Origin: Sphingobacterium allocomposti
GTDB taxonomy: Bacteria > Bacteroidota > Bacteroidia > Sphingobacteriales > Sphingobacteriaceae
Reading direction: 5' to 3'
DNA length: 64,000 nt
NCBI RefSeq assembly: GCF_008124885.1
Contig: NZ_VNHX01000015.1
Location: 1 to 64,000, forward strand
The notes under the pieces were generated by a model. That model did not search any database. It saw only the letters and a program-made list of their open reading frames with translations, and had not been told where the DNA came from. A program made the translations under genes and the position numbers. Position 1 is the stretch's first letter. Each line of letters begins with the position of its first letter. Positions 29,863-31,747 of the stretch are shown in pieces.

Positions 29863-30954
29863 TTAATATACTTTAACGATATAGATATAGTCCTGCAGCT
29901 TCTTTATCTGGTCAGTACGCGGCAAAGCGCTTAGGGAGTTTTTATTGCTAAGCACGATATTCCCTTGCAGGGAGTCTGCCGGTATGCTGTTCAAAGTCTC
30001 CAACAAGGCCTTGGTTTTTATGGCGAATGCGGCGCCGTCGATGCCTTTTTGTTTTCCGCTGATAATACCGATGACGTTCCCGTCTTTATCTAAAACAGGG
30101 CCGCCGCTGTTACCCGGGTTGACCGGAATAGAGATCTGGTAGGCCAACGTGTCGCCTGCATATCCGGTAGCGGAACTCAGGTACCCTTGTCCATATACGG
30201 CTTCGTCGCGTGGGAATCCAATGGTGTAGATATCTTCTCCCAGATCGGAGTCCTGCTTCTTAAACGTATAAGGAATATTTTTTAACGACCTGAAGGTGGA
30301 ATCATTAATACGTAGTATCGCCAGATCTTTCTCCGGATTGGTGAAAATGATGTCGGCTTTAAAAGACTGACCTTTATGGTTCTGTAGGTGAACGGAATCG
30401 GCACCGGTAATCACGTGGTAGTTCGTGACTACATAGCCGTTCTTCGTGATCATAAATCCGGTAGCTCCATAATGCATGGTTTCCACATTATCCTTATGGC
30501 TGCTGATGCTCTTAATCGCAGCGTTGTGCGCATTAACATTCCTTTTTACCGTGTTCATATCGCGGCGCAGGGCGGAGTAGTCCGAAGTGGTTTTGCGCAG
30601 GTTCGAGTAGTATCCTGTAAGCCATAATGTGGAGAATACCGATACGATAGCTATTGCCGCAGCGACCGCCGCGTTTAGTTTTAGGCGATCCCACAGGCTC
30701 ACAACACGGGTGCGTTCGGTCCGGTGAGTTGTATGATAATGGTGCGCTGTTTCGGATAACGATTTTTTAAAGTCTAGCCGTGCTTCGGCCGCCTTAAAAG
30801 TGGACAGAAACGCCGCGTGTTCCTCAAATTTCGTAGCCTCGTCCGGATGCTCCTTACAGTATCCCTCGAACCAAACCCTTTGCTCATCGGAGAGTTCTCC
30901 CCGAAGATACGCGTCTGCCCATTCTATAAATTCCTGCTGGTTTAATTTCCTCAT
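29863..30954 (-). CDS. Anti-sigma-like/transmembrane/trypsin-like serine protease fusion
   Basis: 363 residues in three parts. Residues 1-60 are cytoplasmic and resemble the N-termini of Bacteroidota anti-sigma factors (WADAYLRGELSDEQRVWFEGYCKEHPDE), without a full zinc-binding His-x3-Cys-x2-Cys motif. A single membrane helix lies at about 93-115, then a short coiled coil. Residues 160-320 form an S1C/trypsin-2 protease with His180 (VVTNYHVITGAD), Asp210 (NPEKDLAIL) and Ser283 (PVNPGNSGGPVLD), so the catalytic triad is intact; there is no PDZ domain. The gene lies 16 nt after a sigma factor gene on the same strand, consistent with a membrane sensor controlling that sigma factor. The anti-sigma role is inferred from position and weak similarity. 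Confidence 0.8.
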   Translation of the reverse strand: MRKLNQQEFIEWADAYLRGELSDEQRVWFEGYCKEHPDEATKFEEHAAFLSTFKAAEARLDFKKSLSETAHHYHTTHRTERTRVVSLWDRLKLNAAVAAAIAIVSVFSTLWLTGYYSNLRKTTSDYSALRRDMNTVKRNVNAHNAAIKSISSHKDNVETMHYGATGFMITKNGYVVTNYHVITGADSVHLQNHKGQSFKADIIFTNPEKDLAILRINDSTFRSLKNIPYTFKKQDSDLGEDIYTIGFPRDEAVYGQGYLSSATGYAGDTLAYQISIPVNPGNSGGPVLDKDGNVIGIISGKQKGIDGAAFAIKTKALLETLNSIPADSLQGNIVLSNKNSLSALPRTDQIKKLQDYIYIVKVY

Positions 30955-30970
30955 GCCTGTCTGGAATAAC

Positions 30971-31540
30971 TTACTTCTTAAAAAATAACTTTTTTAGCCG
31001 CTGAAGACACTTGTATTTTTGTGTCTTCGCATTGTCTGTATTGGTATAGCCAAATTTCTCACAGATGTCAGCCATGGATCTATTCTTTATATAAAAGTCA
31101 TACAAGATCGTTTTGCATGGTTCTCCCAGTCCAACCAGTGCTTCTTCCATGTGCAACAGGTTCGCTTCGACGATTTCATGGTTTTCGACAGCCTCTTCGG
31201 CAGCCAGATAATCCTCATGATTGTCGATCTGATCCTTGTGATATTTTGACTCGCCCCGAGTAAGCTGTTTTAGCCATAGCCTCTTTGAAACAGCATACAA
31301 AAAAGTTTGAAGTTTGCTTTGAAGCTCGAAGTTGCTGTTGGTCACTCTGTCGTAGAGCACCATTACGGTCTCCTGAAAGATATCCTGAGCCTCTTCTTTG
31401 CTTCCTTGATTGTTTATAACCATCTTCGCAATTGGCGGGAAATACAGCTTATATAATTTCATTATAGCCAGATTGTCTCCCGACGCCAAGCCGTGAATGA
31501 TATCCAAATCAACGTTGCTATCGCTTTTTTCCTTACTCAC
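30971..31540 (-). CDS. ECF-type RNA polymerase sigma factor
   Basis: 189 residues with the two-domain sigma-70 ECF layout. Region 2 is KLYKLYFPPIAKMVINNQGSKEEAQDIFQETVMVLYDRV (about residues 28-66), with the DIFQE core that binds the RNA polymerase clamp helix. Region 4 covers about residues 130-188, with the helix-turn-helix SMADICEKFGYTNTDNAKTQKYKCLQRLKKLF. It is followed 16 nt later by the membrane anti-sigma-like protease gene. A near-consensus -7 (TACTATTTG, one base long) lies on the minus strand at about 31562-31570. Target promoters are unknown. Confidence 0.92.
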   Translation of the reverse strand: MSKEKSDSNVDLDIIHGLASGDNLAIMKLYKLYFPPIAKMVINNQGSKEEAQDIFQETVMVLYDRVTNSNFELQSKLQTFLYAVSKRLWLKQLTRGESKYHKDQIDNHEDYLAAEEAVENHEIVEANLLHMEEALVGLGEPCKTILYDFYIKNRSMADICEKFGYTNTDNAKTQKYKCLQRLKKLFFKK

Positions 31541-31747
31541 CTATTAATACCTTTTTAATCAAATAGTAACCTGCCTTATGTCGATTTTTTTAGTTCCTGT
31601 CCGGCAAACGCTCTTTTATCTCTTCCAGGCGTTAAAGATATAAAATATCCCCGACTGCTGCGCTAGGTTTGCGTGCCATCGATACAATTCAGGGAGAACA
31701 CCTATCTTACGGCATGTTAGCAGGCTGTCCGTAATAACGACAGTCCC

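Follow-up and report, generated by a model that had tools for sequence, protein, structure and literature searches.

A predicted autoregulated ECF σ circuit in the Bacteroidota whose anti-σ domain and HtrA-type protease share one polypeptide, and its putative self-cleavage trigger

The locus and its question

Can a single protein hold a σ factor and also carry the protease whose cut would set that σ factor free? The question is raised by two adjacent genes in the 64,000-nucleotide stretch of Sphingobacterium allocomposti DNA analysed here ("the window"): an ECF σ gene and, 16 nt beyond its end, a gene for a protein in which an anti-σ-like domain, a membrane helix and a serine protease appear to be joined. 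A class I anti-σ partner lies nearby for 6% of Bacteroidota ECF σ factors versus 32% across all phyla (PMC7406223). The answer offered below, to which we assign a probability of about 0.5, is a full scheme in which a self-cleaving anti-σ/protease is cut again by a site-2 protease, σ is released and a lipoprotein is induced. If this is true, the roles of RseA and DegS can sit in one protein without PDZ control.

An earlier note on the window had described the two open reading frames on the minus strand; their coordinates, strand and spacing prove exact on re-examination (Table 1), and the pairing is not a chance one, since it is conserved throughout the class. The upstream gene, which that note took for an ECF σ factor, does belong to the ECF σ superfamily in the family scan (TIGR02937, 54.6 bits against a curated cut-off of 42.9); Pfam region 2 taken alone falls slightly short (22.6 against 24).

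Table 1. Features of the σ/fusion locus (positions in the window; residues of the fusion protein)
Feature	Position	Strand	Basis or detail
ECF σ factor gene	30971..31540	(-)	189 aa, GTG start
Putative anti-σ/HtrA-type protease fusion gene	29863..30954	(-)	363 aa
N-terminal helical (probable anti-σ) domain, residues 1-76	30727..30954	(-)	AF2 helices; profile search
Single transmembrane segment, residues 91-115	30610..30684	(-)	hydropathy; A98, A99 invariant
Long, probably periplasmic helix/coiled-coil stretch, residues 116-151	30502..30609	(-)	AF2 helix 83-151
HtrA/DegS-fold protease domain without PDZ, residues 158-328	29971..30483	(-)	family scan, alignment, fold search
Catalytic codons His180, Asp210, Ser283	30415-30417, 30325-30327, 30106-30108	(-)
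Conserved C-terminal tail (helix + strand), residues 345-363	29866..29922	(-)
Predicted σ-dependent autoregulatory promoter	31544..31571	(-)	GGTTAC 31566-31571, 15-nt spacer, GTATTAA 31544-31550

A membrane-anchored protease with the DegS fold

The assignment of the protease follows from its fold and its catalytic triad. Trypsin_2 covers residues 164-297 of the fusion protein at 91 bits (Pfam scan; cut-off 27.6), and in an AF2 model built with 64 homologues (mean pLDDT 88) the domain has the trypsin-like fold of DegS and other HtrA proteases, which it matches with Z about 21. H180, D210 and S283 are invariant in 64 of 64 aligned relatives, which argues that protease activity is under selection. 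The curated DegS model TIGR02038 is not reached (68.9 of 422.95 bits), and Pfam finds no PDZ domain in the fusion protein, whose chain stops 35 residues past the protease fold: unlike DegS, it should have no PDZ-peptide trigger.

Ahead of the protease domain the model places helices at residues 6-17, 23-35, 37-76 and 83-151, its confidence being low at 124-131 and 150-156, within and just after the last and longest of them. Residues 91-115 are the sole hydrophobic stretch and thus the only transmembrane candidate, with A98-A99 invariant in the 64 aligned proteins. The parts list drawn up in the earlier note (one membrane helix at about 93-115, a coiled coil between it and the protease, a trypsin-like domain with its His-Asp-Ser triad, and no PDZ domain) accordingly stands, the coiled coil corresponding to the long modelled helix. 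The likely topology has the N-domain in the cytoplasm and the protease in the periplasm, and residues 116-151 would be the candidate region of a first cut; no fixed cleavage site is visible there because the length and sequence of the linker differ between families.

The aromatic C-terminus (..YIYIVKVY) was considered as a mimic of an outer-membrane-protein tail and rejected on two counts: the last residue is non-aromatic in other families, and the conserved tail is also present in protease relatives that have no N-domain.

The N-terminal domain as a probable anti-σ module

Why regard the N-terminus as an anti-σ domain? The assignment is drawn from gene layout and domain reuse. The layout is of the class I type: a helical N-terminal domain of ~80 aa encoded directly behind the ECF gene, then one transmembrane helix. 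Domain reuse became apparent when a profile of residues 1-72 was run on 3743 ORFs, with 11 loci chosen solely by σ similarity: at 8 of the 11 it finds the gene right behind the related σ gene (E 4e-13 to 1e-5), and those 8 matches are the top eight of the 3743 ORFs. The six of these partners that were scanned have no trypsin domain; they carry other, mostly unnamed C-terminal parts, in one case with TPR-like matches. Conversely, of the protease relatives that lack the N-domain (386-753 aa) none has a σ gene of this kind next to it. It is thus the N-domain, not the protease, that goes with σ, and what emerges is a predicted modular family of Bacteroidota anti-σ factors with exchangeable sensors.

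Among the individual loci, L328:2086-3424, L320, L321, L322, L324 and L327 show the N-domain with other C-terminal parts behind related σ genes. The relatives of 386-753 aa at L089-L094 have the C-terminal tail of the fusion protein, carry N-terminal parts other than the N-domain and have no σ neighbour.

Structure modelling offers a second view. When σ was fused to residues 1-88 by way of its stop codon and the spacer, AF2 returned pTM 0.77 and N-domain pLDDT of 91-95, with the linker below 50. The chain is artificial and its linker short; the model would fit a defined σ/N-domain complex. Fold searches are dominated by protease and σ matches, and in the fused model σ regions 2 and 4 match separately. 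The modelled σ lies at rmsd 9-15 Å from the σ chains of anti-σ complexes and at 15-22 Å from RNA-polymerase-bound ECF σ factors, a weak indication that it is nearer to the former.

The anti-σ-like N-terminus surmised in the earlier note is in this way upheld by a domain that recurs behind related σ genes and by an orderly fused model; an anti-σ role for it is very probable on the sequences compared, and we strongly infer that it binds σ. Curated models do not reach as far. For the fusion protein, zf-HC2 stays under its Pfam cut-off (E 0.049; 14.2 of 22.2 bits), the NCBIfam anti-σ match is weak (E 0.0015; 1.3e-6 for the best family member), NF052375 scores 18.6 of 100 bits, no curated anti-σ model passes its cut-off, and the FecR family is absent among the Pfam and NCBIfam matches listed. 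Membership of the zinc anti-σ subclass was rejected, there being no conserved Cys in residues 1-80 and only the H46 position being mostly His. These sub-threshold scores, together with one family that keeps the pair with half of the N-domain missing, would suit a quite different account, namely that the N-domain is no anti-σ factor and that the protein is simply a membrane-anchored HtrA protease sharing a transcript with a σ factor that induces it and is itself under some different control. That account is very unlikely: it has to contend with N-domains encoded behind related σ genes in protease-free proteins, with N-domain-less proteases that are not σ-linked, and with the ordered σ/N-domain model, artificial fusion though it is.

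In the family just mentioned (f68; L043, L045 and L053) the σ gene, the promoter and the divergent lipoprotein gene are kept and residues 1-41 are missing, so that the minimal σ-holding part may be the third helix.

Conservation of the pair

The protease was found in 37 of the 37 genus genomes first searched and the σ gene in 36; in the remaining one (G033) the σ gene is missing because the protease starts 105 bases from the contig end. All 29 further congeners with enough flank have the σ gene directly upstream. An evenly drawn sample of 395 genomes of the class yields full-length or nearly full-length homologues in 59, spread over at least 10 family-level groups, with σ directly upstream on the same strand in all 58 that have enough flank; the fifty-ninth homologue sits at a contig end. 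The gap between the two genes ranges from -14 to 94 nt in this sample, and an ATGA overlap is frequent. Named carriers include Sphingobacterium, Albibacterium, Daejeonella, Pedobacter, Mucilaginibacter, Chitinophaga and Hymenobacter, and in a sample of the phylum all matches at E 1e-45 or better fall in the same class. The earlier note had made linkage to σ across relatives a test of its reading, and the linkage holds: where flank is present, no full-length homologue is without a σ gene, and only the protease relatives that lack the N-domain are not σ-linked.

Such persistence bears on how the system might be triggered. One can suppose that some other envelope protease makes the first cut and that the HtrA domain is a quality-control effector, not a trigger, which the response frees or makes more abundant. 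The genome does have other HtrA-like genes (a second match at C8), and the predicted autoinduction of the operon would raise the dose of protease; this supposition nevertheless leaves the fusion of protease to anti-σ domain, kept over at least 10 families, unexplained, and it is improbable.

A shared promoter and a lipoprotein target

The motif GGTTAC-N15-GTATTAA precedes the σ gene throughout the genus, with small variations across the class, in alignments of upstream DNA; its general form is GGTTAC-N15/16-GTAT(T/A)AA. There are only two exact sites in the S. allocomposti genome. The one before σ ends 3 nt ahead of the GTG start, so that the σ-driven transcript may be leaderless; the other, on another contig, stands 45 nt before the gene of a 72-aa lipoprotein (G000:C6:120367-120582). 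Over the genus, 129 exact sites are found versus 26 for the reversed pattern, the exact motif occurs in 60 of 61 genomes and a homologue of the lipoprotein in 59 of 61, and in every one of the 30 Sphingobacterium loci fetched the lipoprotein gene has the motif 40-52 nt ahead of it. (A technical note: allowing up to 2 mismatches in the S. allocomposti genome gave 73 matches against 112 for the reversed control; as this is no better than the control, the analysis was confined to sites that are exact or conserved.)

The lipoproteins predicted to be co-regulated are small (55-113 aa), with an unstructured-looking tail rich in Asp, Ser, Thr and Ala. Their gene is unlinked to σ in Sphingobacterium and elsewhere is usually divergent and adjacent; outside the genus, one to three such genes stand in tandem, each with its own motif. 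In 65 wider loci, a few of them the same genome from two collections and three from Sphingobacterium, the motif is present at σ in 62 (shuffled control: 0.0006 per window) and a co-regulated divergent lipoprotein gene in 50; the three Sphingobacterium loci are expected to have no adjacent lipoprotein gene, because it is unlinked there.

A promoter that is autoregulated and has the lipoprotein as a target is, from these alignments, almost certain, and a predicted autoregulated circuit of σ, anti-σ-protease and lipoprotein is well supported. The conserved promoter before both the σ gene and the lipoprotein gene is new here; with its lipoprotein target it should tell what the system switches on. 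The pair is present in every adequately covered congener searched and in at least 10 families, its promoter is defined and a core target can be named; signal, cleavage and output are therefore directly testable in culturable Sphingobacterium, Pedobacter, Mucilaginibacter, Chitinophaga and Hymenobacter.

Some variations may be recorded. At positions 31538-31571 the GTG start of σ is near-universal in Sphingobacterium and found in most Pedobacter and Mucilaginibacter relatives; in other families σ mostly starts with ATG and the spacing from motif to start is longer. Several Sphingobacterium species (G005, G012 (L337), G026 and G028) have the lipoprotein gene or its motif in two or three copies close together. 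Family f36 (L311, L314, L316, L317) has a second conserved target, a 96-aa protein that by eye resembles a carbohydrate-binding N-domain of the glycogen-branching type (..KTYFKTKDYCKVKF..ILGLNSDW..); the motif precedes its start by 17-29 nt.

How the switch might work

It is proposed that one protein fills both the RseA and the DegS roles. The steps would be these: 1) The N-terminal helical domain, as there are strong grounds to suppose, holds the ECF σ factor in the cytoplasm. 2) The PDZ-less HtrA domain would lie in the periplasm, probably assembled into an HtrA-type trimer; a signal from the envelope, for instance an unfolded or mislocalised envelope protein, would activate it. 3) Once active, it would cut the juxtamembrane stretch of the fusion protein, either in cis or from one subunit to another. 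4) An M50 site-2 protease, of which the genome has one, would complete the intramembrane cut and free σ. 5) The freed σ would transcribe the operon that encodes it, along with at least one small lipoprotein gene, a step that the sequence strongly supports. 6) Freshly made anti-σ-protease would reset the switch. Self-cleavage as the trigger is the likeliest mechanism, a putative one with roughly even odds. Three points count against the scheme: an invariant triad would also suit a protease acting on some other substrate, the variable linker shows no fixed cleavage site, and in three genomes of one family the pair persists although residues 1-41 are missing.

If the protease cuts something else, what then would connect it to σ? 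The main rival to self-cleavage is a protein that senses its substrate without cutting itself: the N-domain is still the anti-σ factor, the HtrA domain degrades envelope substrates, perhaps the lipoprotein among them, and its occupancy or oligomeric state, relayed through the coiled coil and the membrane helix, loosens the grip on σ, so that σ output would track the load on the protease. The invariant triad and the linkage to σ fit this equally well; the helix 83-151, strongly conserved within the genus, runs continuously through the membrane and could carry a conformational signal; and the lipoprotein, with its unstructured-looking tail, is a plausible HtrA substrate. Membrane anti-σ factors, however, less usually release σ conformationally through a single helix than by regulated proteolysis, and a site-2 protease is available in the genome, so that this rival is judged rather unlikely. 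Self-cleavage followed by site-2 cleavage is the preferred reading. It is a more tentative thought that the scheme holds class-wide, as a Bacteroidota envelope-stress switch in which one self-cleaving molecule would serve as anti-σ factor, sensor and site-1 protease; the switch would have a promoter dedicated to it and, as its core output, a small lipoprotein that may be a feedback ligand or a substrate.

Relation to known systems

The closest parallels are E. coli σE/RseA/DegS/RseP and P. aeruginosa AlgU/MucA/AlgW, with which the present system shares an ECF σ factor, a predicted membrane anti-σ domain facing the cytoplasm, a probably periplasmic serine protease of the HtrA type, a site-2 protease in the genome and predicted autoregulation. 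It differs from them in joining anti-σ domain and protease in one polypeptide and in a predicted core regulon that is a small lipoprotein. A description of such a fusion was not found in the literature searched, which consisted of open-licence papers.

Three cases come near it. For anti-σ factors of the RsgI type (Clostridium thermocellum, Bacillus), periplasmic self-cleavage has been proposed to start signalling, with RseP acting next (PMC12203970); there it is a periplasmic (SEAL) domain that undergoes autoproteolysis, while in the present protein the putative self-cleavage would be the work of an entire HtrA enzyme whose His-Asp-Ser triad is invariant. HtrAw of Brevibacillus WF146, in the part of its description consulted (PMC5359297), cuts itself free of its N-terminal membrane anchor when it meets unfolded substrate and needs its active serine to do so; it also requires its PDZ domain, which the fusion protein does not have, and that part describes no link to a σ factor. 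The nearest Bacteroidota case found in the literature is the EcfO-type pair of Bacteroides and Phocaeicola, for which an envelope-stress response is proposed and whose anti-σ factor has a large extracytoplasmic part (PMC9308784). The prediction for this extra part is a stretch that crosses the periplasm and a terminal outer-membrane β-barrel (PMC9308784), where the fusion protein has a protease, and the EcfO-type regulon differs from the lipoprotein regulon.

The lipoprotein itself resembles the PG1828 family of P. gingivalis: that of S. allocomposti scores 44.3 bits against the model NF050142, below the cut-off of 50. PG1828-type lipoproteins as a general partner of this σ factor were considered and rejected, strong matches occurring in genomes of the class that have no pair, with neither the motif nor the σ gene in the flanks searched. 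In P. gingivalis, the ECF σ factor PG1827 and the lipoprotein PG1828 have consecutive locus numbers, a hint of a similar pairing of σ factor and lipoprotein.
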